Both the position numbers and the translations under genes were made by a program. 64,000 nt of DNA from Harmothoe impar (taxonomy: Eukaryota; Annelida; Polychaeta; Phyllodocida; Polynoidae): positions 64,811,946-64,875,945 of the forward strand of contig OX381720.1 in the NCBI GenBank assembly GCA_947462335.1. Reading direction: 5' to 3'. This document shows positions 11 through 63,846 of the stretch, piece after piece (the stretch's first letter is position 1; each line of letters opens with the position of its first letter). Under the pieces are notes generated by a model. It saw only the letters and a list, made by a program, of their open reading frames with translations, made no database searches and was not told where the DNA came from.

Positions 11-97
11 GGCCTGTAACTGGTTGATCTTCATCAATGACTGAAGGACTTAACACCTAGGACAAACAACGACCACAGACAAGATGGCTTCTCTCTT
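11..97 (+). pseudogene. possible degenerate LRR exon
   Basis: A pyrimidine-rich tract ending in cag at 8-10 and a good donor (gtgagt at 98) bracket 87 bases. All three forward frames contain stops, so it cannot be a normal exon. In the phase used by the other LRR exons it begins with codons for ACNWLIFIND, which resembles the start of a 28-residue repeat, then hits TGA; later it reads QTTTTDKMASL. A one-base gain and a later one-base loss would explain this. It could equally be chance sequence. Low confidence. Confidence 0.25.
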
Positions 98-6541: not shown

Positions 6542-6625
6542 GTTGGGTGCCTCTACATTCAGCACTGAGACTAAGAAGAAGCTGGAAACTGCCAAGGCAC
6601 AAAACAAAACCTTGAAACATTTCTC
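6542..6625 (+). CDS. LRR exon 1 (type b, divergent)
   Basis: An 84-bp exon between tcatcaacag and gtaagtaag, phase 2 on both sides. It reads LGASTFSTETKKKLETAKAQ followed by NKTLKHF, a 28-residue leucine-rich repeat. It aligns with the type b exons downstream (STFSDSG at the same place, then the x-x-L helix and N-x-x-L) but shares far less sequence with them, so it is an older module. Joined to the next exon it gives LKHFSFPSS across the splice, a proper LxxLxLxxN-like strand. The exon ends with TC and the next starts with G, making a Ser codon. The intron that follows is 41.2 kb and nearly all satellite. Confidence 0.75.
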
Positions 6626-24700: not shown

Positions 24701-24789
24701 ACCACACCTGTACTTTCATGCTGACTGACACCACATACTGTACCACACCTGCACTTTCATGCTGACACCACATACTGTACCACACCTGT

Positions 24790-40700: not shown

Positions 40701-43700
40701 TGTACTTTCATGCTGACACCACATACTGTACCACACCTGTACTTTCATGCTGACTGACACCACATACTGTACCACACCTGTACTTTCATGTTGACACCAC
40801 ATACTGCACCACGTCTGTACTTTCATGCGGACTGACACCACATACTATACCTCACCTGTACTTTCATGCTGACACCACATACTGTACCACACCTGTACTT
40901 TCATGCTGACACCACATACTGTACCACACCTGTACTTTCATGCTGACACCACATACTGTACCACACCTGTACTTTCATGCTGACTGACACCACATACTGT
41001 ACCACACCTGTACTTTCATGCTGACTTCACATACTGTACCACATCTGTACTTTCATGCTGACTGACACCACATACTATAACACACCTGTACTTTCATGCT
41101 GACACCACATACTGTACCACACCTGTACTTTCATGCTGACACCACATACTGTACCACACCTGTACTTTCATGCTGACTGACACCACATACTGTACCACAC
41201 CTGTACTTTCATGCTGACTGACACCACATACTGTATTACACCTGTACTTTCATGCTGACTGACACCACATACTGTACCACACCTGTACTTTCATGTTGAC
41301 ACCACATACTGCACCACGTCTGTACTTTCATGCGGACTGACACCACATACTATACCTCACCTGTACTTTCATGCTGACACCACATACTGTACCACACCTG
41401 TACTTTCATGCTGACACCACATACTGTACCACACCTGTACTTTCATGCTGACTGACACCACAATCTGTACCGCACCTGTACTTTCATGCTGACTGACATC
41501 ACATACTGTACCACACCTGTACTTTCATGCTGACACCACATACTGTACCACACCTGTACTTTCATGCTGACACCACATACTGTACCACACCGGTACTTTC
41601 ATGCTGACACCACATACTGTACCACACCTGTACTTTCATGCTGACACCACATACTGTACCACACCTGTACTTTCATGCTGACTGACACCACATACTGTAC
41701 CACACTTGTACTTTCATGCTGACTGACACCACATACTGTACCACACCTGTACTTTCATGCTGACTGACACCACATACTGTACCACACCTGTACTTTCATG
41801 CTGACTCCACATACTGTACCACACCTGTACTTTCATGCTGACTGACACGACATACTGTACCACACATGTACTTTCATGCTGACACCACATACTGTACCAC
41901 ACCTGTACTTTCATGCTGACACCACATACTGTACCACACCTGTACTTTCATGCTGACTGACACCACATACTGTACCACACCTGTACTTTCATGCTGACAT
42001 CACATACTGTACCGCACCTGTACTTTCATGCTGACACCACATACTGTACCACACCTGTACTTTCATGCTGACTGACACCACATACTGTACCACACCTGTA
42101 CTTTTATGCTGACTGACACCACATACTGTACCACACCTGAACTTTCATGCTGCATGACACCACATACTGTACCACACCTGTACTTTCATGCTGACACCAC
42201 ATACTGTACCACACCTGTACTTTCATGCTGACTGACACCACATACTGTACCACACCTGTACTTTCATGCTGACACCACATACTGTACCACATGTGTACTT
42301 TCATGCTGACACCACATACTGAACCACACCTGTACTTTCATGCTCACTGACACCACATACTGTACCAGACCTGTACTTTCATGCTGACTGACATCACATA
42401 CTGTACTACACCTGTACTCTCATGCTGACATCACATACTGTACCACACCTGTACTTTCATGCTGACACCACATACTGTACCACACCTGTACTTTCATGCT
42501 GACTGACACCACATACTGTACCACACCGGTACTTTCATGCTGACTGACACCACATACTGTACCACACCTGTACTTTCATGCTGACACCACATACTGTACC
42601 ACACCTGAACTTTCATGCTGACTGACACAACATACTGTACCACACCTGTACTTTCATGCTGACTGACACCACAAACTGTACCACACCTGTACTTTCATGC
42701 TGACTGACACCACATACTGTACCACACCTGTACTTTCATGCTGACACCACATACTGTAATACACATGTACTTTCATGCTGACTGACACCACATACTGTAC
42801 CACACCTGTACTTTCATGCTGACACCACATACTGTACTACACCTGTACTTTCATGCTGACTGACACCACATACTGTACCACACCTGTACTTTCATGCTGA
42901 CACCACATACTGTACCACGCCTGTACTTTCATGCTGACTGACACCACATACTGTACCACACCTGTACTTTCATGCTGACTGACACCACATACTGTACCAC
43001 ACCTGTACTTTCATGCTGACACCACATACTGTACTACACCTGTACTTTCATGCTGACACCACATACTGTACCACACCTGTACTTCCATGCTGACACCACA
43101 TACTGTACCACACCTGTACTTTCATGCTGACACCACATACTGTACCACACCTGTACTTTCATGCTGACTGACACCACATACTGTACCACACCTGTACTTT
43201 CATGCTGACACCACAAACTGTACCACACCTGTACTTTCATGCTAACACCACATACTGTACCACACCTGTACTTTCATGCTGACTGACACCACATACTGTA
43301 CCACACCTGTACTTTCATGCTGACTGACACCACATACTGTACCACACCTGTACTTTCATGCTGACACCACATACTGTACCACACCTGTACTTTCATGCTA
43401 ACACCACATACTGTACCACACCTGTACTTTTATGCTGACTGACACCACATACTGTACCACACCTGTACTTTCATGCTGACTGACACCACATACTGTACAC
43501 ACCTGTACTTTCATGCTGACTGACACCACATACTGTACACACCTGTACTTTCATGCTGACTGACACCACATACTGTACCACACCTGTACTTTCATGCTGA
43601 CTGACACCACATACTGTACCACACCTGTACTTTCATGCTGACACCACATACTGCACCACACCTGTACTTTCATGCTGACTGACACCACATACTGTACCAC

Positions 43701-46700
43701 ACCTGTACTTTCATACTGACACCACATACTGTACCACACCTGTACTTTCATGCAGACTGACACCACATACTGTCCAGCACCTGTACTTTCATGCTGACTG
43801 ACACCACATACTGTACCACACCTGTACTTTCATGCTGACTGACACCACATACTGTACCACACCTGTACTTTCATGCTGACACCACATACTGTACCACACC
43901 TGTACTTTCATGCTGACTGACACCACATACTGTACCACACCTGTACTTTCATGCTGACACCACATACTGTACCACACCTGTACTTTCATGCTGACTGACA
44001 CCACATACTGTACTACACCTGTACTTTCATGCTGACTGACACCACATACTGTACCACACCTGTACTTTCATGCTGACACCACATACTGTACCACACCTGT
44101 ACTTTCATGCTGACACCACATACTGTACCACACCTGTACTTTCATGCTGACTGACACCACATACTGTACCACACCTGTACTTTCATGCTGACACCACATA
44201 CTGTACTACACCTGTACTTTCATGCTGACTGACACCACATACTGTACCACACCTGTACTTTCATGCTGACTGACACCACATACTGCACCACACCTGTACT
44301 TTCATGCTGACACCACATACAGTACCACACCTGTACTTTCATGCTGACTGACACCACATACTGTACACACCTGTACTTTCATGCTGACTGACACCACATA
44401 CTGTACCACACCTGTACTTTCATGCTGACACCACAAACTGTACCACACCTGTACTTTCATGCTGACTGACACCACATACTGTACCACACCTGTACTTTCA
44501 TGCTGACTGACACCACATACTGTACCACACCTGTACTTTCATGCTGACTGACACCACATACTGTACCACACCTGTACTTTCATGCTGACACCACATACTG
44601 TACCACACCTGTACTTTCATGCTGACACCACATACTGTACCACACCTGTACTTTCATGCTGACTGACACCACATACTGTACCACACCTGTACTTTCATGC
44701 TGACTGACACCACATACTGTACCACACCTGTACTTTCATGCTGACTGACACCACATACTGTACCACACCTGTACTTTCATGCTGACACCACATACTGTAC
44801 CACACCTGTATTTTCATGCTGACTGACACCACATACTGCACCACACCTGTACTTTCATGCTGACTGACACCACATACTGTACCAGACCTTTACTTTCATG
44901 CTGACTGACACCACATACTGTACCACACCTGTACTTTCATGCTGACACCACATACTGTACAGCACCTGTACTTTCATGCTGACTGACACCACATACTGTA
45001 CTACACCTGTACTTTCATGCTGACACCACATACTGTACTACACCTGTACTTTCATACTGACACCACATACTGTACCACACCTGTACTTTCATGCTGACAC
45101 CACATACTGTACTACACCTGTACTTTCATGCTGACTGACACCACATACTGTACTACACCTGTACTTTCATGCTGACACCACATACTGTACCACACCTGTA
45201 CTTTCATGCTGACACCACATACTGTACCATACCTGTACTTTCATGCTGACTGACACCACATACTGTACCACACCTGTACTTTCATGCTGACACCACATAC
45301 TGTACTACACCTGTACTTTCATGCTGACTGACACCACATACTGTACCACACCTGTACTTTCATGCTGACACCACATACTGTACCACACCTGTACTTTCAT
45401 GCTGACACCACTTACTGTACCACACCTGTACTTTCATGCTGACTGACACCACATACTGTACCACACCTGTACTTTCATGCTGACTGACACCACATACCGT
45501 TCCACACCTGTACTTTCATGCTGACACCACATACTGTACCACACCTGCACTTTCATGCTGACTGACACCACATACTGTACCACACCTGTACTTTCATTCT
45601 GACTGACACCACATACTGTACCACACCTGTACTTTCATACTGACACCACATACTGTACCACACCTGTACTTTCATGCTGACACCACATACTGTACCTGTA
45701 CTTTCATGCTGACACCACATACTGTACCACACCTGTACTTTCATGCTGACTGACACCACATACTGTACCACACCTGTACTTTCATGCTGACACCACATAC
45801 TGTACCACACCTGTACTTTCATGCTGACTGACACCACATACTGTACCACACCTGTACTTTCATGCTGACACCACATACTGTACAACACCTGTACTTTCAT
45901 GCTGACACCACATACTGTACCACACCTGTACTTTCATGCTGACTGACACCACATACTGTACTACACCTGTACTTTCATGCTGACACCACATACTGTACCA
46001 CACCTGTACTTTCATGCTGACTGACACCACATACTGTACCACACCTGTACTTTCATACTGACACCACATACTGTACCACACCTGTACTTGCTGACTGACA
46101 CCACATACTGTATCACACCTGTACTTTCATGCTGACTGACACCACATACTGTACCACACCTGTACTTTCATGCTGACTGACACCACATACTGTACCACAC
46201 CTGTACTTTCATGCTGACACCACATACTGTACCACACCTGTACTTTCATGCTGACACCACATACTGTACCACACCTGTACTTTCTTGCTGACTGACACCA
46301 CATACTGTATCACACCTGTACTTTCATGCTGACACCACATACTGTACCACACCTGTACTTTCATGCTGACACCAGATACTGTACCAAACCTGTACTTTTA
46401 TGCTGACTGACACCACATACTGTACCACACCTGTACTTTCATACTGACACCACATACTGTACCACACCTGTACTTTCATGCTGACACCACATACTGTACC
46501 ACACCTGTACTTTCATGCTGACTGACACCACATACCGTACCACACCTGTACTTTCATGCTGACACCACATACTGTACCACACCTGTACTTTCATGCAGAC
46601 TGACACCACATACTGTACAGCACCTGTACTTTCATGCTGACTGACACCACATACTGTACCACACCTGTACTTTCATGCTGACTGACACCACATACTGTAC

Positions 46701-47849
46701 CACACCTGTACTTTCATGCTGACTGACACCACATACTGTACCACACCTGTACTTTCATGCTGACACCATATACTGTACCACACCTGTACTTTCATGCTGA
46801 CTGACACCACATACTGCACCACACCTGTACTTTCATGCTGACTGACACCACATACTGTACCACACCTGTACTTTCATGCTGACTGACACCACATACTGTA
46901 CCACACCTGTACTTTCATGCTGACACCATATACTGTACCACACCTGTACTTTCATGCTGACTGACACCACATACTGTACCACACCTGTACTTTCATGCTG
47001 ACTGACACCACATACTGTACCACACCTGTACTTTCATGCTGACACCACAAACTGTACCACACCTGTACTTTCATGCTGACTGACACCACATACTGTACCA
47101 CACTGTACCTTCATGCTGACTAACACCACATACTGTACCACACCTGTACTTTCATGCTGACTGACACCACATACTGTACCACACCTGTACTTTCATGCTG
47201 ACTGACACCACATACTGTACCACACCTGTACTTTCATGCTGACACCACATACTGTACCACACCTGTACTTTCATGCTGACTGACACCACATACTGTACCA
47301 CACCTGTACTTTCATACTGACACCACATACTGTACCACGCCTGTACTTTCATGCTGACACCACATACTGTACCAAACCTGTACTTTCATACTGACACCAC
47401 ATACTGTACCACACCTGTACTTTCATGCTGACACCACATACTGTACCACACCTGTACTTTCATGCTGACTGACACCACATACTGTACCACACCTGTACTT
47501 TCATACTGACACCACATACTGTACCACGCCTGTACTTTCATGCTGACACCACATACTGTACCACACCTGTACTTTCATGCTGACTGACACCACATACTGT
47601 ACCACACCTGTACTTTCATGCTGACTGACACCACATACTGTACCACACCTGTACTTTCATGCTGACACCACATACTGTACTACACCTGTACTTTCATGCT
47701 GACACCACATACTGTACCACACCTGTACTTTCATGCTGACGACACATACTGTACCACACCTGTACTTTCATGCTGACTGACACCACATACTGTACCACAC
47801 CTGTACTTTCATGCTGACACCACATACTGTACCACACCTGTACTTTCAG

Positions 47850-47933
47850 GTTCCCCAGCAGTCTACTAACTGACCGCTCCTGTACCGCTATCTGTAAGTT
47901 CTTGCAAAAGAACCGCACCATAAAAGATCTCAG
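47850..47933 (+). CDS. LRR exon 2 (type a)
   Basis: An 84-bp phase-2 exon between ctgtactttcag (the last satellite monomer) and gtaagcaag. It reads FPSSLLTDRSCTAICKFLQK followed by NRTIKDL, one 28-residue LRR. It is the most divergent of the type a exons: the others have SSLTDTSIPALCDFVTKN. Its acceptor and most of its polypyrimidine tract are part of the satellite. Spliced to exon 3 it gives IKDLSFYNST, a correct LRR strand. Splicing over the 41-kb intron is inferred from matching phase and from the repeat register. Confidence 0.8.
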
Positions 47934-50199: not shown

Positions 50200-50447
50200 T
50201 TTGCTGGTGTGGGCCATGGTAGCCAATGGTGGTTATTCAGAGGGCTGCATAGTGCTTTACCCCTCATGTTGCTGCCCTGACACTAACAGTCAGAGTGGAA
50301 CGAGGCAGGTACTCTGACCTTTATACTCCATGGTTAATGGTGTACCATGTGAACCAATGTTACTTGGCGTAGAGATGGGATACGCATTAACCATTCATGG
50401 CTATGATAACATGTTGTTTTATGAAGTCCTCATCATCTGTATTACAG

Positions 50448-50484
50448 GTTCCTCCATTCAACCCTATCAGACAGCGGGTTGTGC
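50448..50484 (+). pseudogene. truncated type b LRR exon relic 1
   Basis: Follows tgtattacag, the acceptor seen before every type b exon. It begins gttcctccattcaaccctat and continues cagacagcgggttgtgc, similar to the start of the type b exon (tccaccttctctgacagcgg and gatgtgc). It then breaks into atttctaatcttctgtg, which is the intron sequence that precedes the next acceptor. Only the 5' half of the exon remains. Confidence 0.6.
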
Positions 50485-50517
50485 ATTTCTAATCTTCTGT
50501 GTGGTTCTGTATTACAG

Positions 50518-50541
50518 CTTCCAGTGCTCCACCTTTACTGT
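50518..50541 (+). pseudogene. truncated type b LRR exon relic 2
   Basis: A second tgtattacag acceptor is followed by cttccagtgctccaccttta. It matches the first 20 or so bases of a type b exon before diverging. It is followed by another copy of the intron 3' end and then the intact exon at 50625. Confidence 0.55.
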
Positions 50542-50624: not shown

Positions 50625-50708
50625 CTTCTACAACTCCACCTTCTCTGACAGCGGGATGTGCCGCCTCATGGACTCCCTGACTCACAACCAGGTGCTACAG
50701 AGACTAGA
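50625..50708 (+). CDS. LRR exon 3 (type b)
   Basis: 84 bp between tctgtattacag and gtgagtgtgg, phase 2. The variable strand residues are Y and N at positions 3-4 of the repeat (FYNST). The conserved body is STFSDSGMCRLMDSLTHNQ, then VLQ, R and L, with the split codon giving D. It is almost identical to the exons at 51943, 54581 and 61904, except at the strand codons. It is followed 16 bases later by the 52-bp minisatellite, as in its paralogues. The role inferred is one turn of an NLR-type LRR solenoid. Confidence 0.88.
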
Positions 50709-50724
50709 GTGAGTGTGGCTAGGT

Positions 50725-51257
50725 CACGTTTACATCTCAGGGATTCCCCTCCTAATGTAGGTGCATCACGCTAACTCCCGTTTACATCTCAGGGATTCCC
50801 TCCTAATGTAGGCGCATCATGCTGACTCAAGTTTACATCTTAGGGATTCCCCTCCTAATGTAGGTGCATCATGCCAACTCACGTTTACATCTCAGGGATT
50901 CCCTCCTAATGTAGGCGCATCATGCTAACTCACGTTTACATCTCAGGGATTCCCCTCCTAATGTAGGCGCATCATGCTAACTCACGTTTACATCTCAGGG
51001 ATTCCCTTCCTAATGTAGGCGCATCATGCTAACTCACGTTTACATCTCAGGGATTCCCCTCCTAATGTAGGAGCATCATGCTAACTCACGTTTACATCTC
51101 AGGGATTCCTTTCTAATGTAGGCGCATCATGCTAACTCACGTTTACATCTCAGGGATTCCCCTCCTAATGTAGGAGCATCATGCTAACTCACGTTTACAT
51201 CTCAGGGATTCCTTTCTAATGTAGGCGCATCATGCTAACTCATGTTTACATCTCAGG
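50725..51257 (+). repeat. 52-bp minisatellite (intron after exon 3), about 10 copies
   Basis: Unit tcacgtttacatctcaggga plus ttcccctcctaatgtaggcgcatcatgctaac, 52 bp; some copies are shorter by one or two c. Each copy contains tttacatctcag, a reasonable splice-acceptor word. Confidence 0.95.
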
Positions 51258-51378
51258 AATGTTCATCGTCACTTACATAGATTATCACAGACAGACCACA
51301 TAAAGTGATTCATTTACTTTACTTTACTTAAAAACAACTGATTCCTGAGTTCCCTCTGTTTGAACAATTCTTTCATGT

Positions 51379-51534
51379 GTAGGCCTACAGTGTTGTAGTA
51401 GGCCTTTCATTGGTGTTTCTTTAGGCCTACTATGGGTGTTCCTGTAAGTCTACTCATAATTGTTTTTATAGGCGTACTCATTGTTGTTTCTGTAGGCCTA
51501 GTCATGGTTGTAGTATTAGGCCTAGTCATGTAGA
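51379..51534. repeat. taggccta-rich short repeats, copy 1
   Basis: Imperfect units of roughly 24 bases with tgtttctgtaggcctactca. The palindromic core taggccta recurs. The same region is found at 53428-53552 and 55486-55684 as part of the duplicated intron. Confidence 0.6.
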
Positions 51535-51578
51535 AACCCATGTACCACCAATACACTGTTCTGTTCTCTGTGTTTCAG

Positions 51579-51662
51579 CTTCTCCTGCAGCAGTCTAACA
51601 GACACATCAATCCCAGCTCTCTGTGACTTTGTGACAAAGAATAGACGTATCACAAAACTAAG
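51579..51662 (+). CDS. LRR exon 4 (type a)
   Basis: 84 bp between tctgtgtttcag and gtaagggtt, phase 2. It reads F-S-C then SSLTDTSIPALCDFVTKNRR and ITKL. Strand residues 3-4 are S and C. It begins the first complete a-b exon pair of the tandem duplication. The 280-base intron to exon 5 is equal in length to that of the 61540/61904 pair. Joined to exon 3 it reads LQRLDFSCSS. Confidence 0.88.
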
Positions 51663-51942
51663 GTAAGGGTTAACTTGAAATATACATATTCAAGAGATTT
51701 AGCTTACAAACTTAAGTAAAGAGAGATGGAATTTATCTAGCATAAACTACCTGGTGCACCAACCATGACTCCATGTCATAAACCCACAATTAGGGTCTCT
51801 TTGTAGCAGGCCTTGCAGTCTGAATGTGCTGCAGTTGTAGTATATGTAACAACATTGCTGTATTAAGGCATTCATATTCACAATTATTGACCCTTTCATG
51901 CCATGAAGTGTTTCTAATCCTCCGTATGGTTCTGTATTACAG

Positions 51943-52026
51943 CTTCACCTGCTCCACCTTCTCTGACAGCGGGATGTGCCGCCTCATGGACTCCCTGACT
52001 CACAACCAGGTGCTACAAGACCTAGA
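51943..52026 (+). CDS. LRR exon 5 (type b)
   Basis: 84 bp, acceptor tctgtattacag, donor gtgagtgtgg, phase 2. Variable strand residues are T and C (FTCST), and the later variable codon gives D in LQDL. All other residues equal exon 3; the only silent change is CAA for CAG. Confidence 0.88.
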
Positions 52027-52041
52027 GTGAGTGTGGTTTAG

Positions 52042-53305
52042 TCACGTTTACATCTCAGGGATTCCCCTCCTAATGTAGGCGCATCATGCTAACTCACGTT
52101 TACATCTCAGGGATTCCCTCCTAATGTAGGCGCATCATGCTAACTCACGTTTACATCTCAGGGATTCCCCTCCTAATGTAGGCGCATCATGCTAACTCAC
52201 GTTTACATCTCAGGGATTCCCCTCCTAATGTAGGCGCATCATGCTAACTCCCATTTACATCTCAGGAATTCCCCTCCTAATGTAGGTGCATCATGCTAAC
52301 TCCCATTTACATCTCAGGGATTCCCCTCCTAATGTAGGTGCATCATGCTAACTCAAGTTTACATCTCAGGGATTCCCCTCCTAATGTAGGCGCATCATGC
52401 TAACTCCCATTTACATCTCAGGGATTCCCCTCCTAATGTAGGCGCATCATGCTAACTCCCATTTACATCTCAGGAATTCCCCTCCTAATGTAGGTGCATC
52501 ATGCTAACTCCCATTTACATCTCAGGGATTCCCCTCCTAATGTAGGTGCATCATGCTAACTCAAGTTTACATCTCAGGGATTCCCCTCCTAATGTAGGCG
52601 CATCATGCTAACTCCCATTTACATCTCAGGGATTCCCCTCCTAATGTAGGCGCATCATGCTAACTCCCATTTACATCTCAGGGATTCCCCTCCTAATGTA
52701 GCCGCATCATGCTAACTCCCATTTACATCTCAGGGATTCCCCTCCTAATGTAGGCGCATCATGCTGACTCACGTTTACATCTCAGGGATTCCCCTCCTAA
52801 TGTAGGTGCATCATGCTAACTCACGTTTACATCTCAGGGATTCCCCTCCTAATGTAGGCGCATCATGCTAACTCCCGTTTACATCTCAGGGATTCCCCTC
52901 CTAATGTAGGCGCATCATGCTAACTCACGTTCACATCTCAGGGATTCCCCTCCTAATGTAGACGCATCATGCTAACTCACGTTTACATCTCAGGGATTCC
53001 CCTCCTAATGTAGGCGCATCATGCTAACTCACTTTTACATCTCAGGGATTCTCCTCCTAATGTAGGCGCATCATGCTAACTCACATGTACATCTCAGGGA
53101 TTCCCCTCCTAATGTAGGTGCATCATGCTAACTCACGTTTACATCTCAGGGATTCCCCTCCTAATGTAGGCGCATCATGCTAACTCACGTTTACATCTCA
53201 GGGATTCCCCTCCTAATGTAGGTGCATCATGCTAACTCAAGTTTACATCTCAGGGATTCCCTCCTAATGTAGGCGCATCATGCTAACTCACGTTTACATC
53301 TCAGG
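52042..53305 (+). repeat. 52-bp minisatellite (intron after exon 5), about 24 copies
   Basis: Same unit as after exon 3 but more than twice as long (1,264 bp). It includes a sub-block of units with ctcccatttacatctcag that is itself repeated (about 52250-52740), showing local amplification. Confidence 0.95.
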
Positions 53306-53427
53306 AATGTTTCATGTCACTTACATAGATTATCACAGACAGACAACATAAAGTGGTTCATTTACTTTACTTTACTTAAAAACAACGGCTTTCTGTGTTC
53401 CCTCTGTTTGAACAATTCTTTTATGTG

Positions 53428-53552
53428 TAGCCTGACAGTGTTGTAGTAGGCCTGTCATTGGTGTTTCTGTAGGCTTACTCATTGTTGTTTCTTTAGGCCT
53501 ACACCTAGTTGTTTCTGTAGGCCTAGTCATGGTTGTAGTATTAGGCCTAGTC
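53428..53552. repeat. taggccta-rich short repeats, copy 2
   Basis: Paralogue of 51379-51534 in the duplicated intron, slightly shorter. Confidence 0.55.
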
Positions 53553-53603
53553 ATGTAGAAACCCGTGTACCACCAATACACTGTTCTGTTCTCTGCGTTT
53601 CAG

Positions 53604-53687
53604 CTTCGGATGTAGCAGTCTAACAGACACATCGATCCCCGCTCTCTGTGACTTTGTGACAAAGAATAAACGTATCACAAAACTAAG
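53604..53687 (+). CDS. LRR exon 6 (type a)
   Basis: 84 bp between tctgcgtttcag and gtaagggtt, phase 2. It matches exon 4 except for the strand codons (G and C instead of S and C), one R-to-K change and two silent changes. Its downstream intron carries the TTAA-flanked MITE; without it the intron would be 280 bp, as in the other pairs. Joined to exon 5 it reads LQDLDFGCSS. Confidence 0.88.
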
Positions 53688-53698
53688 GTAAGGGTTAA

Positions 53699-54307
53699 GG
53701 TGGGTCAATGTGATGCCAATTTCGCCCACTGCGCCGTTTCCTGCGCAGGTACTTTCTCTAGTTTGACTACAGACCACCAGGGGACCTTTGCTTCATATTG
53801 GCATAGATAATATGAAATGGTTAGAAAATGATGAAAGAAGTTGCCTGACCGGGGCGAGAACCACCGACCTTTGAATTTGAAGGCATGCATTCTGCCACTG
53901 TGCTATGGAGTCTGTGGTGGTGGCTCTCATTCAGAAGTCATACATAACTACATACTTAGTATATTTCCATTTCCTTTCAATTTTTTTTTTCAATGGACAA
54001 AAACTTTAGAAATATGCCTGGGACCATATGTTCAAAATGGATTTTCTAGAGAGAGAACATTAAAACCTATATCCTGAGAGAGTTATATAGACATTTAGCT
54101 ACTTTTCAATACTATTTTATGTACATATGTGGCAAAACACTATATACTCCTATTACATGAAACATTGACTTCAGGCTTGAATAACTCAGAAAACAGCTCG
54201 GGACCCTCCTATTTTCTTAGCTTTGTTGGAAAGTGTATGCTATTTTGGTCTTATGGCAAAAACCTGATGAAAATCAAGCTACTTTTACACCAAGGTATTG
54301 ACCCACC
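53699..54307. mobile_element. 609-bp MITE with TTAA target duplication
   Basis: TTAA at 53695-53698 and 54308-54311 flanks an element with 11-bp perfect terminal inverted repeats (GGTGGGTCAAT and ATTGACCCACC). The two paralogous introns carry a single TTAA at the same place (for example agggttaacttg after exon 4), which is the empty site. The TTAA duplication points to piggyBac-type transposition, but the element has no transposase frame. It contains a tRNA-like segment. Confidence 0.9.
53842..53914 (-). other. tRNA-like segment inside the MITE
   Basis: On the minus strand the sequence tagcacagtgg (complement of 53895-53905) fits the pol III A box TRGCNNAGYGG exactly. ggttctcgccc (complement of 53852-53862) is a degraded B box, at normal tRNA spacing. 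The fold is imperfect, so it is not a functional tRNA. It may be a decayed SINE head or tRNA pseudogene carried by the element. Confidence 0.4.
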
Positions 54308-54580
54308 TTAACTTGAATTATACATATTCAAGAGATTTAGCTTACAAACTTAAGTAAAGAGAGATGGAATTTATCTAGCATAAACTACCTTGTGCACCAA
54401 CCATCACTCCATGTCATAAACCCACAGATAGGGTCTCTTTGTAGCAGGCCTTGCAGTCTGAATGTGCTGCAGTTGTAGTATATGTAACAACATTGCTGTA
54501 TTAAGGCTTTCATATTCACAAGTATTGACCCTTTCATGCCATGAAGTGTTTCTAATCCTCCTTATGGCTCTGTATTACAG

Positions 54581-54664
54581 CTTCTGGGACTCCACCTTCT
54601 CTGACAGCGGGATGTGCCGCCTCATGGACTCCCTGACTCACAACCAGGTGCTACAGACACTAGA
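54581..54664 (+). CDS. LRR exon 7 (type b)
   Basis: 84 bp, acceptor ctgtattacag, donor gtgagtgtgg, phase 2. Strand residues 3-4 are W and D (FWDST); the later variable residue is T (LQTL). The conserved body is unchanged from exons 3 and 5. Joined to exon 6 it reads ITKLSFWDST. Confidence 0.88.
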
Positions 54665-54679
54665 GTGAGTGTGGTTAAG

Positions 54680-55374
54680 TCACGTTTACATCTCAGGGAT
54701 TCCCCTCCTAATATAGGCGCATCATGCTAACTCACGTTTACATCTCAGGGATTTCCCTCCTAATGTAGGCGCATCATTCTAACTCATGTTTACATCTCAG
54801 GGATTCCCCTCCTAATGTAGGCACATCATGTTAACTCATGTTTACATCTCAGGGATTCCCCTCCTAATGTAGGCGCATCATGCTAACTCATGTTTACATC
54901 TCTTTCCCTCCTAATATAGGCGCATCATGCTAACTCATGTTTACATCTCAGGGATTCCCCTCCTAATATAGGCGCATCATGCTAACTCACGTTTACATCT
55001 CAGGGATTCCCTCCTAATGTAGGCGCATCATGCTAACTCACGTTTACAACTCAGGGATTCCCTCCTAATATAGGCGCATCATGCTAACTCACGTTTACAT
55101 CTCAGGGATTCCCTCCTAATATAGGCGCATCATGCTAACTCACATTTACATCTCAGGGATTCCCCACCTAATGTAGGCGCATCATGCTAACTCACATTTA
55201 CATCTCAGGGATTCCCCACCTAATGTAGGCGCATCATGCTAACTCACGTTTACATCTCAGGGATTCCCCTCCTAATGTAGGCGCATCATGCTAACTCACG
55301 TTTACATCTCAGGGATTCCCTCCTAATGTAGGCGCATCATGCTAACTCACGTTTACATCTCAGGAATGTTCCAT
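54680..55374 (+). repeat. 52-bp minisatellite (intron after exon 7), about 13 copies
   Basis: Same 52-bp family. Variants such as cctaatataggcgcatcatg and one copy missing part of the unit (tacatctctttccctcc) are frequent here. Confidence 0.95.
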
Positions 55375-55485
55375 GTCACTTACATAGATTAGCACAGACA
55401 GACGACATAAAGTGGTTCATTTACTTCACTTTACTTAAAAACAACTGCTTTCTGTTTTCCCTCTATTTGAACAATTCTTTTATGT

Positions 55486-55684
55486 GTAGGCCTACAGTGT
55501 TGTAGTAGGCCTATCATTGGTGTTTCTTTAGGCCTACTATGGGTGTTTCTATAGGCTTACTCATGGTTGTTTCTGTAGGCTTACTCATTGTTGTTTCTGT
55601 AGGCTTACTCATTGTTGTTTCTTTAGGCCTACACATAGTTGTTTCTGTAGGCCTACTCATGGTTGCAGTATTAGGCCTAGTCAT
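55486..55684. repeat. taggccta-rich short repeats, copy 3
   Basis: Paralogue of 51379-51534 with extra units (ttgtttctgtaggcttactc repeated). Its last bases, ggcctagtcat, are the left junction of the DIRS-type insertion. Confidence 0.6.
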
Positions 55685-55913
55685 TCATGGACACCCCCCC
55701 GGACAGACAAGAGGAGAGAGGATTAAAGAACAAATGTTTTAATTGGAGGAATATGCATTATACAATATAAATTTTTACCTGAGATTATATGAAGGTCAAA
55801 TGACATATTTTAGACCTGTATGTATTATAGGTAGACATGATTGAGTATAGGTCTTTTATAACCTTATAATAACATATGATAGGTGATATTAAACATAGAG
55901 TACATGATAATGC
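55685..55913 (-). repeat. split direct repeat B2 (element terminus)
   Basis: 229 bp, identical to B1 at 56171-56398 except for a run of seven rather than six c. It begins tcatggacacc on the + strand, directly after host ggcctagtcat. Confidence 0.92.
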
Positions 55914-55950
55914 TTATTATTTTACCTATTTGATAAGGTGTGGGTGGGTG

Positions 55951-56170
55951 GGAAAACCTGACCTCCTTGGAAGGCTTGTTGTGGTGGAGTGAGGAAGTAG
56001 GTCATAAAACAGGTGAGTGGTGGAGGCTTACATAAGGTGGGTCAGTATAACAGGTGTGGGAGTCACAGTAGGTAGGGTAGTGTGTTGGGGGAGGAATATA
56101 GTAGGTAGGATAATGTGATCTGCCCAGTGAGGGCCATGAATGACAAACCATGCGCGCATGGTCACCCCAT
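55951..56170 (-). repeat. split direct repeat A2
   Basis: 220 bp, identical to A1 at 61270-61490 except for one t. It abuts B1 at 56170/56171 (ggtcaccccat then tcatggacacc), which reproduces the head-to-tail junction of a circular intermediate. Confidence 0.92.
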
Positions 56171-56398
56171 TCATGGACACCCCCCGGACAGACAAGAGGA
56201 GAGAGGATTAAAGAACAAATGTTTTAATTGGAGGAATATGCATTATACAATATAAATTTTTACCTGAGATTATATGAAGGTCAAATGACATATTTTAGAC
56301 CTGTATGTATTATAGGTAGACATGATTGAGTATAGGTCTTTTATAACCTTATAATAACATATGATAGGTGATATTAAACATAGAGTACATGATAATGC
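56171..56398 (-). repeat. split direct repeat B1
   Basis: 228 bp, directly downstream (in element orientation) of the recombinase stop codon and adjoining A2. Confidence 0.92.
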
Positions 56399-56428
56399 CA
56401 AAAATACCAAGAGTTTTATATATTGCAT

Positions 56429-57454
56429 TTAAGCAGATTTTAGTGCATGAGAGAGTTTGGTAGCGATAGTCTTGGAGGCTGACTTTTGGACGTAGGCCCA
56501 TACCGCATCGGAGCGCCATGCGCCAAAGTCTTTAACCTCCTGGATGGATGCGCCGGCCTTGTGGGCGGTGTCGGCGGCCGTCTTCCTTAGCGAGTGAAGT
56601 CTGTTGAACATTGGCGGTGCATTTATCTTGTTGAGTACCCGGGCCCATTCCGCCGCCACGTATTCGGCCGTCACCGGGTTGCGGTCTGCGAACATTATCA
56701 TTGGGTCTGTAGGGTACCTGGTTGGTGCGAGTATCACGGCTGCCGCTAGTGCGGTCCAGGGGCACAGAAGTGGGTCCTTTGATTTGTCGAGATGTCGCGT
56801 TTGTGTCTGATTGTACTTTTGTGCGTTCTTCGCATGTCGGATTGTCACTGTTACGCCAGTACGGTGCAATGACACGTCGGCCCTCGTTAGGTGCAGCCTT
56901 GGGTCGAATGTGCCGGTTGATGGCACACATACCTCGGATCTCCTCATTGCGCCGTAGAACATGGTCAGCACCGCGGCCCGTACTACTGTGCCTGACTCGT
57001 TCCGCGGTATCTCCAGTACGGCAGCTTTGAAGGTTCGTAGGGGGACTGGGGGCCTTGGCCGGGGAACGTATGTGGACGTCCTGTCGATGCCTTCCAGTGC
57101 CTGTGTCACCCTTGGATGATACGTTTTCTCCGTTGGTACTCCCGCCAGCGTCAGGTGTTGTCGCATGTGGGATATTATGTTGCGGATGGTCGCGGGGCAT
57201 TTGTACTGCCGCGCTAGATACTCGATGTAGATGCATATGTGTGTGTGCGCTGGAGCCAGGTGGTCGATGCCCGTGTACCTGCAGAACCAGATGTAGGTCC
57301 GTGTTGCGGTGTCGTGGTTCCTGTTGGTCCCTTTCGCCCTTGCCTGGGTTTGCCGTCGGGTTGCCGCGAGCTGCAGTGATCGGAGTCCCGGATCTGGATC
57401 GTAGAAAAGGAAATACCAGGTTAAAGGCATCTTCACTTGGATATACAAATACAA
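56429..57454 (-). CDS. tyrosine recombinase of the DIRS-type element
   Basis: 341 residues. The SAM-like N-terminal part is at about 40-110 (NRNHDTATRTYIWFCRYTGI). The catalytic domain has Arg in AMRRSE (171-172), the beta-strand Lys in RHAKN (209), the box HSLR (His287, Arg290), Trp313 in GAWRSD in place of the second His, and the nucleophile Tyr321 in WAYV. All expected active-site residues are present. It would integrate the circular cDNA of the element without target duplication by an integrase. The first Met shown may not be the true start: the frame overlaps the RNase H frame, and in this family the recombinase is often a separate or overlapping ORF. C-terminal residues after Tyr are short and basic. 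Confidence 0.9.
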   Translation of the reverse strand: MYLYIQVKMPLTWYFLFYDPDPGLRSLQLAATRRQTQARAKGTNRNHDTATRTYIWFCRYTGIDHLAPAHTHICIYIEYLARQYKCPATIRNIISHMRQHLTLAGVPTEKTYHPRVTQALEGIDRTSTYVPRPRPPVPLRTFKAAVLEIPRNESGTVVRAAVLTMFYGAMRRSEVCVPSTGTFDPRLHLTRADVSLHRTGVTVTIRHAKNAQKYNQTQTRHLDKSKDPLLCPWTALAAAVILAPTRYPTDPMIMFADRNPVTAEYVAAEWARVLNKINAPPMFNRLHSLRKTAADTAHKAGASIQEVKDFGAWRSDAVWAYVQKSASKTIATKLSHALKSA

Positions 57455-58037
57455 GGTTATGTGTTGTGAAGTCCTTCATGGCCCTTTCATAATAAAAGTC
57501 TGAGAGATGGGCTCGGCTAAGATTGTCTGGGACTACATTTTCGATGCCTGGGATATGCTGAATGTCACTTCTAACTGTTGCACCGCCTGTACCATCCACA
57601 CGGCCCGTGCGGCCGTTTTGGAATACTGCGACTGCGGCTTGGTTGTCGCAGAGTACTATGATATGCCCGCCTTTGTCGGAGTCGTCGAGGAACGTATGTA
57701 ACGCGACAACCGCATTGACGGCCTCGAGTTCGTTGATGTCGGCAGCACCGTCCTTGATGGGGGCGACTTGTCGGTAATAGGCGCGCTTGCCGTCGGTGCC
57801 GCCGATCCCCGACAGACAGGCATCGACCTCGAGTGTCTTTGTCGGTTTGGCTGCCGGGATGAGTGCTACCCCGTTCCATTCGGTGGCAAACTCCATGAAC
57901 CATCGCAGGTCGGCGCGCATGTGTTCATTGATGAGTATATGTTCGGTTCTCATGCCCCTTAGTGCCTCTAGTAGTCTAGATATGAACAGCCGCGCCAGTT
58001 TAATGCATCTTCCGATGTGTACTAGTTGACCCACCAA
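57452..58037 (-). CDS. RT thumb/RNase H domain of the DIRS-type element
   Basis: About 195 meaningful residues of a longer open frame. It begins with the RT C-terminal segment (VGQLVHIGRC...ARLFISRLLEALRG) and goes on to RNase H: Asp72 in LEVDACLSG, Glu103/105 in NELEAVNAV, Asp131 in VLCDNQAAV and Asp171 in VVPDNLSRAH. The stretch between Asp131 and HIPGIEN is shorter than I would expect, so a small deletion is possible. It lies in a different frame from the RT upstream; the change occurs near 58060-58070, where a single extra base accounts for it. Past 57452 the frame stays open to 56532 but is only the recombinase gene read out of frame. Confidence 0.8.
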
Positions 58038-60741
58038 CGATTCCAGTTGTTTTCTCGTAAGGTACTGTTCGTAGTTTTACGGTGTGTATGACTTCGCAAA
58101 GCTTTTCGCGGGGCACTGACATGGTCATATCGGCTGCTGAAAACTTAACACCTAGCCATACAACAGCTTGTACCGGGTACTGTCTTTTTTCCTCGGCTTC
58201 CGGGAGGCCGAGTTCTTTGAGGAGGTCGGTGACCATGCTCATGTCGCGGTCCGCGGTCACCTTGTCTGGTGATATGAAGACGATGTCGTCGAGGTACATT
58301 TCCGCCGTGACTCCACTATCCGCTAGTATGGCCACAATCGCGTTTGCGACGCGTTGCATGTGTAGGCTGCTGCAACGTGCCCCGAATGGCATTGCCGTCT
58401 CCATGTAATATAGGCCCCCCCATTTTATGCACTGCAGTGGCAAGTCTAATATGTCAGAGTTAAAGTTTTTGTACGCCCTCGAGATGTCCACCGAGCCCAT
58501 GTATGCGCCGGTACCGACTCTTTTCATGTGTGCGGCTAGTCGGTCGGTGGTGGGGAGTGTGTGGTCTACTATGTGACCGTTGAGGTTATTTTTAATGACA
58601 TACGCATTGATGGATGTCTCGGGTGGGAACGTGAGGTCAGATATGAGGCGTCGTGCGTCGGACGTCTTTTTGGGGCGGGACATGAGCGGTGCGACATGGC
58701 ACCACTCGTCGAACGGGGGGTCCTTGAAGGGCCCCATGAGGCCACCCAAGCCGACCTCGCTGTTTATACAGTCTGATACTTTATCAGAGTAGTTTGTGGC
58801 ACTGGGGTGGTTGTCTACCTTTGTTGTGTCGCTAACCGGGCCTAGGTAGCCCAGTGGGAAACCATACTTTATCATATCCAAGAGGAGTGGGTCCCTGTGT
58901 GATAGGTACTTCTCCCAGACGGATATGTTGAGGGAAGTGGGAAGCACTAGTCTGGATACCATGTGGTTGGGAAGCCCTGTGGCCCTCACTACATCATATA
59001 TTTTTGCATATTGTGCTGTTTTGTTGTCACTGGTAGCACTTTGAGCAAAGCTAGGCCAGAGTGTCTTTCTGTATTCTGAGAGTACAGAGGGGGCTATGTC
59101 TATGTCTATATGCTCATGGTTCCCTTCGGCTATTTGTCTGACCCTATCAAAATACATGGGGAGGCTCTGTAGGTTGGCAGTGTATGCATGCTTACCAGTG
59201 TCAGTGTTGACCGAGTCAGCTGATTGACCGAGGTACCCTTCCCCGATCGATTCTGCCGGAGATTTTCCATAATATATCGTTTGTGGGTATGTGAGTGTTG
59301 GTTCTTCACCGCTGGTGTCATTTTTAGCGCTTCTGGGTGCAGGGGCGCTAAAATAGCGGTCCTTTTCGCTATAATTCGCATTGTTTACCTCTCGTACGGG
59401 GTCGGTGTGGGCGCTGCCATGTTGATGTTTGAAGTCTCGTCTGCTCTCGCCGTTCGCGAGAGGGTGCGAGATTCGGGAATTTTTGTTGTTTTGACCATTT
59501 TCGGCGTGCGGACGAGTCGATATCTCCGGATCTACTTCGTTTTCAGGGTTGGGACCAGCGCCATTTTCTTTATTTTTTAATTCTAGGCCGAAAACATGTG
59601 CTGGGGGGGTGGAATGGTGGCTATTTAGTTCAATTTGAGCACTTTTATCGAATCGAATCGATGCGAGTTGGTGGCGGCCATGTTGGATTTCGTCTTCTCG
59701 TCTTCTCTCGGCTGGCGCGAGAGGGCGTGAGAGAGCCGCGGATCCCGGGGATCGGTTATTATTCAAAATGTCGCAATGTTTTCCGCCCTGTGCGGACGCT
59801 TGGTTTAAGTCCGCAATGTCGTGTTTTTGTCCGGTTTGGGGGATGTTGTTGTCCGGGGGGATCCCTACCATCTCCCTTGGTGCAGGAAACCGCCTTCCAC
59901 ATTTTTTGGGGGATTGTTGTGGGTGGTTCTGGGTGGGTGGTGGGTGGTACTGGGTGTTCATAGGCCTACCTCCCATGGCTGCTACAGCATTGTTACAGTT
60001 GGTGAGGTTATGGTGAGATAGCCATTTCCCAGATATACTATTGCAGTGGGAGCATATGTGGTACACCTTTTTGTCTCCCTCCCCATGGTCTGATGCATGA
60101 ATGCAGCCCTTGGTGGAGTTAAAGTCTCTGCAGGTAGTGACCCGGCCATGGGGCATACTATATGCTCCCTTGGTCTGGCTGGGGTGGTTGCCATGGTTAC
60201 GCGAGGGAGGTACGGAGGTAGAGGTGCGATAGTCCCTCTCCACATTTCCTGACAAACCGAGGGACCTGACATTATGTATGGCTTGTTTGTTGGGCCAACT
60301 GAATTTATCCCTCTCTATGAGATCAAACACCTTCTGTGAATATGTCATGATTTTTTCCCATGATCTCCCACTTAGTCGGTCGGACATGATGTCATGTAGA
60401 TGGCTCAGGATGAAGGGGTTGTTTTCCTGGTCCTCTCTTTTGTCATCCTCTAAGAGGGCTACAATAGCGGTCATGTATTCAAGTTCTGAGAGTTTATGCC
60501 TATTATCTAGCCTTTGCTTGATGGTGGGGGCACCAGGCCTTTCCACGTACATATAGGGTTTCATAATGGGATTTCTTATGAGTGGGTCATGTGCATGACT
60601 TCCCCTACCTGTCGTGAGAATGGCTGCCATGACCTCCCGTTTGAGCTCGTCGTCGATGAAGCCATCGTAGTTCTGACTCCGTCGTAGATTCCTGGGGGAT
60701 GGGATCCTCCTGTGTGGTGTGGGTACCTCCTCCAGTGACAT
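58000..60741 (-). CDS. Gag-RT polyprotein part of the DIRS-type element
   Basis: 913 residues from the first Met; the frame is open further upstream to about 60,985. Residues 1-240 are Gag-like, with a helical part and a zinc-binding motif (Cys204, Cys213, His228, Cys230, Cys233) of the kind found in DIRS/Ngaro Gag. A polar, low-complexity stretch fills about 250-500. The RT lies at about 640-900: ARRLISDLTFPPETSINAYV, catalytic Asp752 in SVDISRAY, AMPFGARCSS and YLDD at 816-819. The frame stops shortly after the RT palm, because RNase H continues in another frame (frameshift near 58065). Codon use and GC are higher than in the flanking introns, fitting a recent mobile insert. Confidence 0.88.
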   Translation of the reverse strand: MSLEEVPTPHRRIPSPRNLRRSQNYDGFIDDELKREVMAAILTTGRGSHAHDPLIRNPIMKPYMYVERPGAPTIKQRLDNRHKLSELEYMTAIVALLEDDKREDQENNPFILSHLHDIMSDRLSGRSWEKIMTYSQKVFDLIERDKFSWPNKQAIHNVRSLGLSGNVERDYRTSTSVPPSRNHGNHPSQTKGAYSMPHGRVTTCRDFNSTKGCIHASDHGEGDKKVYHICSHCNSISGKWLSHHNLTNCNNAVAAMGGRPMNTQYHPPPTQNHPQQSPKKCGRRFPAPREMVGIPPDNNIPQTGQKHDIADLNQASAQGGKHCDILNNNRSPGSAALSRPLAPAERRREDEIQHGRHQLASIRFDKSAQIELNSHHSTPPAHVFGLELKNKENGAGPNPENEVDPEISTRPHAENGQNNKNSRISHPLANGESRRDFKHQHGSAHTDPVREVNNANYSEKDRYFSAPAPRSAKNDTSGEEPTLTYPQTIYYGKSPAESIGEGYLGQSADSVNTDTGKHAYTANLQSLPMYFDRVRQIAEGNHEHIDIDIAPSVLSEYRKTLWPSFAQSATSDNKTAQYAKIYDVVRATGLPNHMVSRLVLPTSLNISVWEKYLSHRDPLLLDMIKYGFPLGYLGPVSDTTKVDNHPSATNYSDKVSDCINSEVGLGGLMGPFKDPPFDEWCHVAPLMSRPKKTSDARRLISDLTFPPETSINAYVIKNNLNGHIVDHTLPTTDRLAAHMKRVGTGAYMGSVDISRAYKNFNSDILDLPLQCIKWGGLYYMETAMPFGARCSSLHMQRVANAIVAILADSGVTAEMYLDDIVFISPDKVTADRDMSMVTDLLKELGLPEAEEKRQYPVQAVVWLGVKFSAADMTMSVPREKLCEVIHTVKLRTVPYEKTTGIVGGSTSTHRKMH

Positions 60742-61214
60742 GGATCTCCTGCTCCTGGGCTCCCTGTAGGTACTCCTCCGGTGCCGGCCCTCTCGCCGGG
60801 GTGGGGTGTCCTCGCGTCGGGGTGGGGTGTCCTCCTGCCGGGGTGGTGTGACCTCGCGCCGGGGTCTCCTCTGCTTTTCCCTGGACCTCCTGGGGGTCCG
60901 GGGGGGGTCCTCTCCTCCTGCTCCTCCTCGTCCGACGATGGTGCCCTGGGCTTCTTCTTCTTCAGGATGGGCTTCCTTGGAGGTTCAATGCTTTTGGATA
61001 TAATCAGGTCTAGCTTGATGCTTATATCCTTTATATCACCCTCCAGTGCTGTGACTCTGGCCTCTGTAGTGTTGGGAGTGGGGTCCACCTCGGGGGCCAC
61101 CTCCTCCTGGTCAGTCTCATCATCAGCCTCATACTCCTTAGCCTTCAGTTTGCTCACCCTGGCAGACCTTCTAGGGGCCTTCTTCTTGGGTATCTCCTTC
61201 TTCTTTGGTGGCAT
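60576..61214 (-). CDS. ORF1 (Gag N-terminal part) of the DIRS-type element
   Basis: 212 residues beginning MPPKKKEIPKKKAPRRSARV. A very basic N-terminus is followed by an acidic patch (YEADDETDQEE), a short coiled-coil-like stretch (TEARVTALEGDIKDISIKLD) and then Pro/Gly/His-rich low-complexity sequence. It overlaps the next frame by about 400 bp. In that overlap both frames are open and rich in short repeats (rc of ggggtgtcctcgcgtcgg). The natural Gag probably joins this N-terminus to the 913-residue frame, by programmed frameshift or because this copy carries an indel. An eight-c run near 60900 is a candidate site. Confidence 0.7.
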   Translation of the reverse strand: MPPKKKEIPKKKAPRRSARVSKLKAKEYEADDETDQEEVAPEVDPTPNTTEARVTALEGDIKDISIKLDLIISKSIEPPRKPILKKKKPRAPSSDEEEQEERTPPGPPGGPGKSRGDPGARSHHPGRRTPHPDARTPHPGERAGTGGVPTGSPGAGDPCHWRRYPHHTGGSHPPGIYDGVRTTMASSTTSSNGRSWQPFSRQVGEVMHMTHS

Positions 61215-61269
61215 GGTGGATAGATCTATGGGGTAGATCTATAGTGGTAGGTCCAGTGGTAGCTCCAGT

Positions 61270-61490
61270 GGAAAACCTGACCTCCTTGGAAGGCTTGTTG
61301 TGGTGGAGTGAGGAAGTAGGTCATAAAACAGGTGAGTGGTGGAGGCTTACATAAGGTGGGTCAGTATAACAGGTGTGGGAGTCACAGTAGGTAGGGTAGT
61401 GTGTTGGGGGAGGAATATAGTAGGTAGGATAATGTGATCTGCCCAGTGAGGGCCATGAATGACAAACCATGCGCGCATTGGTCACCCCAT
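61270..61490 (-). repeat. split direct repeat A1 (element terminus)
   Basis: 221 bp, upstream of ORF1 in element orientation, matching A2. Ends ggtcaccccat on the + strand, followed at once by host gtagaaacc. Confidence 0.92.
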
Positions 61491-61539
61491 GTAGAAACCT
61501 GTGTACCACCAATACACTGTTCTGTTCTCTGTGTTTCAG

Positions 61540-61623
61540 CTTCATGAACAGCAGTCTAACAGACACATCAATCCCCGCTCTCTGTGACTTTGTGACAAAG
61601 AATAAACGTATCACAAAACTAAG
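61540..61623 (+). CDS. LRR exon 8 (type a)
   Basis: 84 bp between tctgtgtttcag and gtaaggggc, phase 2. Strand residues 3-4 are M and N (FMNSS) in place of SC or GC in exons 4 and 6; the remaining body is identical to exon 6 at the protein level. It lies 49 bases past the right end of the DIRS-type insertion, so its acceptor region is intact. Joined to exon 7 it reads LQTLDFMNSS. Confidence 0.88.
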
Positions 61624-61903
61624 GTAAGGGGCAACTTGAAATATTTACATTTTAGAAATTTATCTTACAAACATAAGTAAAGACAGATGACAAAAGTCCA
61701 GTATTACTTAACTGGTGCACCAACCATCACTCCATGCCATAAACCCACAGATAGGGTCTTCTTGTAGCAGGCCTTGCAGTCTGAATATGCTGCAGTTGTA
61801 GTATATGTAACAACATTGCTGTATTAAGGCTTTCATATTCACAAGTATTGAACCTTTCATGACATGAAGTGTTTCTAATCCTCCGTATGGTTCTGTATTA
61901 CAG

Positions 61904-61987
61904 CTTCCCCTGGTCCACCTTCTCTGACAGCGGGATGTGCCGCCTCATGGCCTCCCTGACTCACAACCAGGTGCTACAGGAACTACA
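61904..61987 (+). CDS. LRR exon 9 (type b)
   Basis: 84 bp, acceptor ctgtattacag, donor gtgagtgtgg, phase 2. Strand residues 3-4 are P and W (FPWST), the later variable residue is E (LQEL) and the split codon gives H instead of D. One body change (D to A in LMASL) is unique to this copy. Separated from exon 8 by exactly 280 bases. Confidence 0.88.
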
Positions 61988-63762: not shown

Positions 63763-63846
63763 CTTTACTTTCAGTGACCTTGATGATTCATCAGTACAGA
63801 AGCTCTGCACCCTCATCCACAAGAACCAGCACAAGCACAAGCTCAG
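63763..63846 (+). CDS. LRR exon 10 (type a-like, divergent)
   Basis: 84 bp between cttgttccag and gtaggacat, phase 2. It reads FTFSDLDDSSVQKLCTLIHK followed by NQHKHKL, one 28-residue LRR related to but well diverged from the a exons. The donor (CAG then gtagga) is weaker than those of the other exons. The 3' end of the exon with its donor is the seed of the 60-bp tandem repeat that follows. Whether splicing uses this donor or a later copy cannot be told. Confidence 0.8.

Follow-up and report, generated by a model that had tools for sequence, protein, structure and literature searches.

Near-identical repeats which evolve in concert within each receptor and have few surface codons diversified have been described in the Podospora HNWD NLRs het-d and het-e (PMC1805685), and a comparable repeat pattern is described in the NACHT proteins of fungal ANK and TPR NLRs (PMC4986451). 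In brown algae, the LRR-ROCO genes carry one leucine-rich repeat (LRR) per exon, with phase 2 introns and positively selected concave sites (PMC11378527, where Zambounis 2012 is cited on brown-algal ROCO genes). Here we describe gene 1, which begins in a stretch of 64,000 nucleotides from the polychaete Harmothoe impar (assembly GCA_947462335.1, contig OX381720.1, forward-strand positions 64,811,946 to 64,875,945; this whole stretch is the window, and positions are counted from its first letter), and in which LRR exons are nearly identical outside a few codons of a predicted ligand-facing surface. The explanation which we consider probable is duplication and homogenisation of exons, with diversifying selection on the presumed ligand-binding surface of an LRR-ZU5-(CARD-like) sensor.

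The fungal HNWD receptors and the brown-algal ROCO genes appear to be the closest analogues of this pattern. As in the HNWD type, the repeats of gene 1 are near-identical and cluster by gene (support 93-98, with 2 changes needed when all columns are used), and few predicted surface codons per repeat are diversified. However, the fungal NLRs have WD, ANK or TPR repeats, a NACHT domain and exchange among many loci, whereas gene 1 has one LRR per exon and exchange between loci was not seen. Single-LRR phase 2 exons and diversified predicted concave sites are shared with the brown-algal ROCO genes, but those have 72-nt exons and a ROC-COR GTPase, whereas gene 1 has 84-nt exons for ribonuclease-inhibitor-type LRRs, a ZU5 domain and a CARD-like end. 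Given that no inter-locus exchange was seen and that its signalling domains are different, we assign gene 1 to neither type.

Fixed-length phase 2 LRR exons are also found in Tetrahymena, in which arrays of 90-bp LRR exons with phase 2 introns have spread by exon shuffling through thousands of genes (PMC6564038). Unlike gene 1, this is a ciliate system; that paper nowhere uses the word "concave", and variation restricted to such codons does not appear in the parts of it consulted. The place of ZU5 in gene 1, between the LRRs and a CARD-like, putatively death-fold end, resembles that in NLRP1 and PIDD, where ZU5 lies between LRRs and a death-fold domain (PMC3210808); CARD8 belongs to the same ZU5-UPA group. 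Unlike this group, gene 1 lacks an SF/S or HF/S motif at the ZU5-UPA junction, and there is no NACHT in the gene model.

No animal case of this pattern was found in the titles and abstract beginnings of the literature searched, a search whose coverage mostly left out subscription journals. If our reading is true, an animal sensor shares the fungal and brown-algal trick of keeping its exchangeable repeats uniform but for a few free codons, the convergent evolution of evolvable recognition surfaces could be tested directly through the resequencing of a single locus from several animals, and NACHT-less LRR-ZU5-CARD proteins would be candidates for receptors and not mere adaptors.

LRR exon array

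LRR exons were defined as exactly 84 nt with AG immediately before, GT immediately after and phase 2. LRR positions are counted along LxxLxLxxN with the first L as 1, and the variable codons are those of positions 7, 8 and, in type b, 3. By the LRR consensus, positions 3, 5, 7 and 8 would point to the concave side or the adjacent loop. The seven 84-nt exons of types a and b which the initial annotation had reported are all present with these borders and this phase. The features of the array are as follows, with three related genes on the same contig (genes 2 to 4) described further below.

84..97, plus strand: predicted first coding exon (ATG GCT TCT CTC TT, phase 2), with an in-frame junction with the exon at 6542; predicted from sequence alone
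6542..6625, plus strand: LRR exon r1 (84 nt, phase 2); the paralogue, gene 3, has a counterpart first repeat
47850..47933, plus strand: LRR exon a0, diverged, type a-like
50435..50484, plus strand: decayed type b fragment (nhmmer E 6.6e-7), LH at the variable codons (by eye)
50485..50540, plus strand: decayed type b fragment (nhmmer E 3.1e-9), QC at the variable codons (by eye)
50625..50708, plus strand: LRR exon b1, variable codons 50629-50634 (YN) and 50701-50703 (R)
51579..51662, plus strand: LRR exon a1, variable codons 51583-51588 (SC)
51943..52026, plus strand: LRR exon b2, variable codons 51947-51952 (TC) and 52019-52021 (D)
53604..53687, plus strand: LRR exon a2, variable codons 53608-53613 (GC)
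54581..54664, plus strand: LRR exon b3, variable codons 54585-54590 (WD) and 54657-54659 (T)
61540..61623, plus strand: LRR exon a3, variable codons 61544-61549 (MN)
61904..61987, plus strand: LRR exon b4, variable codons 61908-61913 (PW) and 61980-61982 (E)
63763..63846, plus strand: LRR exon r10, followed beyond the window by linker, ZU5 and CARD-like exons at 66370-70634 on the window scale

A profile scan of 264 kb recovered ten LRR exons, all in the window and all with at least 46 bits, the next best match having 8 bits. Across the four type b exons 12 of the 84 columns are variable, nine of which encode YN/TC/WD/PW and R/D/T/E; the three remaining columns carry a D to A replacement (column 48), a silent difference between CAG and CAA (column 76) and, in the last copy, its split codon (column 83). 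The three type a exons have 9 of 84 columns variable, including six in the SC/GC/MN codons, two silent and one with an R/K change. The description of these copies as nearly identical outside the named codons was thus accurate. LRR positions 3, 5, 7 and 8, which together take up 12 nt, hold 10 of the 12 variable columns in type b (P = 1.5e-9 for clustering) and 6 of the 9 in type a (P = 1.6e-4). The decayed fragments just upstream of b1 supply two further residue pairs, LH and QC, which were absent from the initial annotation.

The flanking introns had also been called near identical. This holds for the a-to-b introns of units 1 and 2, which differ at 9 of 280 nt (3.2%), but not for that of unit 3, which is ~12% different from both, nor for the 260 nt upstream of b1, which have ~50% identity to the other copies and are not alignable.

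Probable selection on the variable codons

The a-to-b intron, with 38 parsimony steps in 280 sites among its three copies, served as the yardstick for neighbouring change; b1 was left out of the step counts, as the intron upstream of it could not be aligned. The variable codons of b2-b4 have taken 10 steps in 9 nt against 1.22 expected at the intron rate (~8x, P = 6.7e-7), and those of a1-a3 have taken 9 steps in 6 nt against 0.81 expected (~11x, P = 2.1e-7). The remainder of the exons changed less than the intron, with 3 steps against 10.2 expected in type b (P = 0.009) and 3 against 10.6 in type a (P = 0.007). At the variable codons the proportion of amino-acid-changing differences (pN) reaches 0.77 in type b and 0.47 in type a, compared with 0.009 and 0.012 elsewhere, and the proportion of silent differences (pS) outside the variable codons is 0.030 (b) and 0.076 (a). 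At the type a variable codons pS is about 1, on very few sites, which fits saturation and would fit local mutation too.

It should be noted that the codon set was chosen after the fact in the initial annotation; gene 3 and exon r10 are the controls for which the set was fixed beforehand. In gene 3 the three corresponding exon residues are above average in variability (0.89 vs 0.375, permutation P = 0.004). Between the r10 exons of genes 1 and 4, 3 of 9 nt differ at the variable codons, compared with 22 differences over 480 nt of one intron (P = 0.007). The proposal of diversifying change at positions which the LRR consensus would place on the concave face is therefore upheld by an excess of ~8-11 times the intron rate, by constraint in the rest of the exon and by variability at the same positions in the paralogue.

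Concerted evolution of the repeats

The repeats of gene 1 are 85-89% (b) and 89-93% (a1-a3) identical, whereas those of gene 3 are 44-70% (b) and 44-63% (a) identical, so that its b and a copies differ by 30-56%. In a tree built on the 84 alignment columns, in which some forks are poorly supported, repeats clustered by gene and not by position: the gene 3 b repeats grouped with support 95/95, the gene 3 a repeats together with a0 of gene 1 with 95/96, and after removal of the variable columns the b repeats split by gene with 93/98. The gene 1 repeats have therefore been recently homogenised or re-expanded, with the variable codons staying or becoming different.

A rival account of such differences is that the exons were recently duplicated and that each copy then acquired ordinary point mutations, favoured by positive selection of extreme strength, without homogenisation of older variants. 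The 3.2% divergence between the units 1 and 2 introns does indicate that recent duplication or homogenisation is real. However, b2 and b3 differ at 8 of the 9 variable nucleotides, where 0.3 would be expected at 3.2%, and the number of differences over whole exons (4 for b1-b3, 6 for b2-b4 and 9 for b2-b3) is at odds with the introns, which are closest for b2-b3. As these exon similarities (b1/b3, b2/b4) clash with the intron similarities (b2/b3), older variants retained through homogenisation fit at least as well, and we regard point mutation after recent duplication as unlikely. The initial annotation had dated the differences after a recent duplication: recent duplication or homogenisation is borne out, but that all of the differences are younger is doubtful given the gene-wise grouping of the repeats and the conflict between exons and introns.

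Predicted protein and its relatives

The gene model, which is a sequence prediction, has 19 exons (the ATG exon, ten LRR exons and eight downstream exons from 66370 to 70634 on the window scale) with GT-AG sites and an open frame of 767 amino acids (aa) in the version with the start exon at 84-97. An initial model of 803 aa was dropped since the paralogue does not support two of its acceptor sites, and 767 aa is the corrected length. The 803-aa model underlies the full-protein ribonuclease inhibitor score, the LRR_6 score, the tblastn searches for the paralogue and gene 4, and exons 14 and 16 in the comparison of genes 1 and 2; the 767-aa model underlies the Pfam E values for ZU5 and CARD.

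The LRRs match ribonuclease inhibitor (E 1.4e-16 with the full model, 4.4e-19 with the LRR part) and Pfam LRR_6 (2.4e-7), and their 28-residue repeats are of the ribonuclease-inhibitor type. Pfam ZU5 scored above the cut-off in gene 1 (E 6e-7) and gene 3 (3.8e-8), and Pfam CARD below it and in gene 3 alone (E 0.006); a three-sequence profile of the CARD-like end had 0 matches in PDB. We read the conserved region which follows ZU5 as UPA-like on its position and conservation. The motif [HSTY]F[ST], covering the self-cleavage motifs SF/S and HF/S, does not occur in residues 442-480 of gene 1 at the ZU5-UPA junction; there are 9 matches in the whole protein, 8 within the LRR part and 1 at 611. 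The predicted protein begins with the LRRs, and the Pfam results for its 803-aa version contain no NACHT and no match to ROC-COR. A search of a metagenomic protein set with the ZU5 exon, in which the query included a stretch now read as intron, gave 2 candidates, none with E <= 0.001. Gene 1 probably encodes an LRR-ZU5-(UPA-like)-(CARD-like) sensor, presumably cytosolic; its ZU5 domain and CARD-like end are suggestive of an animal gene. The immune-type receptor envisaged in the initial annotation is in keeping with this predicted arrangement, which resembles that of cytosolic immune and death sensors.

We searched the genome with exon DNA, scoring the best candidates only. Exon b had 4 matches, all within this array, and exon a had 4, of which three lie in this array and one, 74% identical, at 57.80 Mb of contig C20, the contig of the window. 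The latter is the paralogue, gene 3, 7 Mb from gene 1, which has the same ten-LRR layout in the order r1, a0, b, a, b, a, b, a, b, r10, followed by a ZU5 and CARD-like part. Its ten LRR exons all measure 84 nt except r10 (81 nt), and the six of eight downstream exons which were compared with gene 1 have equal lengths (143, 197, 225, 171, 223 and 191 nt).

The a and b exons might alternatively be splice-selected cassettes, as in Dscam, instead of parts of a single ten-repeat solenoid. Skipping any LRR exon would preserve the frame, all of them being 84 nt and phase 2, and the LRR exons of human NLRs are described as modular and alternatively spliced (PMC6642158). Gene 3, however, has retained the alternating order of ten exons although its exons have diverged, as expected if all are joined, and we give this alternative a lower chance than point mutation after recent duplication. 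As any LRR exon of gene 1 can be left out without a frame shift, further variants could arise through exon skipping. A more ambitious account, namely a NACHT-less LRR-ZU5-CARD sensor with a self-renewing in-frame LRR exon array, uniform framework, diversified ligand-face codons and possibly exon skipping, which in its boldest form includes templated or somatic rewriting of codons, seems to us slightly less likely again.

Gene 2 (80365-84748) and gene 4 (C20:64.58-64.59 Mb) are similar to the 3' part of gene 1. No LRR exons were found near gene 2. In gene 4, r10 alone was recovered as an LRR exon, with none within the 24 kb upstream of it, and because there is no match to residues past 538 of the 803-aa model in the DNA compared, this gene may be broken. 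Between genes 1 and 2, the five exons of the ZU5/UPA region have a sum of 7 amino-acid-changing and 10 silent differences, and the CARD-like exon has 27.7 amino-acid-changing to 9.3 silent. The linker exon from LRR to ZU5 (66370-66498 vs 80365-80493, window scale) has 13 amino-acid-changing differences and 1 silent; it is possibly a second fast-changing region, with the next exons hardly differing.

A genome search with the ZU5 exon gave 41 places at E <= 1e-3 among the 61 candidates scored, of which 4 are on C20 (genes 1 to 4) and 7 have stops within the match; the weaker of these places may be other ZU5 proteins. The 37 matches outside C20 lie on contigs C4, C8, C12, C15, C18, C19, C145 and C224, several of them clustered. 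No LRRs of this type were found upstream of the two of these 37 places which were inspected, over ~8-9 kb each.

Proposed mechanism

Under the explanation which we favour, the concave face of a ten-LRR solenoid would bind non-self or stress ligands and the death-fold domain would signal. Units of two exons, b and a, would be copied inside the gene through unequal exchange or gene conversion. With all LRR exons of 84 nt and in phase 2, such copying would leave the reading frame intact. The framework would be held uniform by exchange together with purifying selection, and diversifying selection would hold the copies apart at LRR positions 7, 8 and, in type b, 3, which would form the ligand surface. 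Such a combination would explain the conflict between exon and intron similarity without new machinery.

Several observations weigh against this explanation. The sample is seven near-identical exons with codons picked post hoc, and b2 vs b4 alone has no excess (2 of 6, P = 0.16). In gene 3, residue 25 matches the most variable of the three chosen residues, residue 20 is level with the remaining two, and residues 9, 19 and 22 come near them. In r10 of genes 1 and 4, 6 of the 9 differences fall outside the codon set, and the yardstick is one intron of three, the others having 77.9% identity with gaps and 97.5%. When all columns are retained in the tree, the gene 1 b repeats are not on one side of a branch and 2 changes are needed. 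No near-identical exon lies outside the array among the best candidates scored in the genome, so that no exchange between genes was seen. As for the protein, Pfam CARD had no match in genes 1 and 2 and a UPA domain after ZU5 had none in Pfam or PDB. The start and linker exons of gene 3 were not recovered by tblastn, and its last exon extends beyond the stop position of gene 1. Between genes 1 and 2, one of the five ZU5/UPA-region exons has 4 amino-acid changes and 1 silent, and pN/pS is 0.71 over all seven exons, the linker and CARD-like exons included.

Search for marks of targeted mutation

The initial annotation had also raised a targeted diversification process. Templated or otherwise targeted rewriting of the variable codons, whether by hypermutation, cassette copying or somatic rearrangement, would suit the alteration of several bases together in adjacent codons, the sharp edges of these changes and the high silent change at the type a variable codons. 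A local mutator should, however, mark its surroundings and the adjoining intron, which ends four bases upstream of the variable codons, and the flanking 40 nt have no excess: 2 steps before b2-b4, 1 after them and 3 before a1-a3, where 5.4 were expected. A count of 30 steps in the 40 nt after a1-a3 is an artefact, since it comes from an ungapped comparison across an insertion in a2. Among the genome matches (4 for b and 4 for a, best candidates scored) there are no intact spare cassettes, only the two decayed b fragments. The same positions are variable in gene 3, the copies of which are not near-identical, and ordinary selection accounts for that. We therefore think targeted rewriting very improbable.

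Lamprey VLRs are an LRR repertoire with variable concave residues and somatic cassette assembly. The likeness to them suggested in the initial annotation goes no further than the variable predicted concave face, gene 1 having no intact spare cassettes that we could see, and nothing in the sequences at hand pointed to targeted mutation or to an assembly like that of VLRs.

A dead gene or a chance pattern is scarcely credible, for although the introns are very large and repeat-filled, with an inserted retroelement, the 19-exon frame is open with GT-AG sites, exon lengths match those of gene 3 where compared, the codons outside the variable set are constrained and four of the five ZU5/UPA-region exons have few amino-acid changes between genes 1 and 2.

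Repeats and mobile elements in the introns

The intron of gene 1 between r1 and a0 is filled by a minisatellite of 41-bp units (6858..47848, ~41 kb). Every intron which follows a b exon contains a 52-bp minisatellite, at 50709-51260, 52027-53310, 54665-55370 and 61988-62595 (10, 24, 13 and 11 units, respectively). A comparison of minisatellite units, with 2 unit types shared between arrays, was uninformative. A 60-bp minisatellite after r10 (63840-64000 and on past the window) includes the 3' end of the exon and the splice donor; copies of CAG/GTAGGA number 37 in 63830-66100 on the window scale and 56 in the array before gene 2.

The b3-a3 intron holds a retroelement on the minus strand at ~55690-61484 (ends by eye), with reverse transcriptase and tyrosine-recombinase-like open reading frames (ORFs). 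Its Pfam matches were RVT_1 (8e-14) and, below the cut-off, Phage_integrase (6e-4), and we read it as a DIRS-like element. A second retroelement, with a reverse-transcriptase ORF at 2465-4015 on the minus strand (RVT_1 2.5e-38), lies within the first intron of the gene model.

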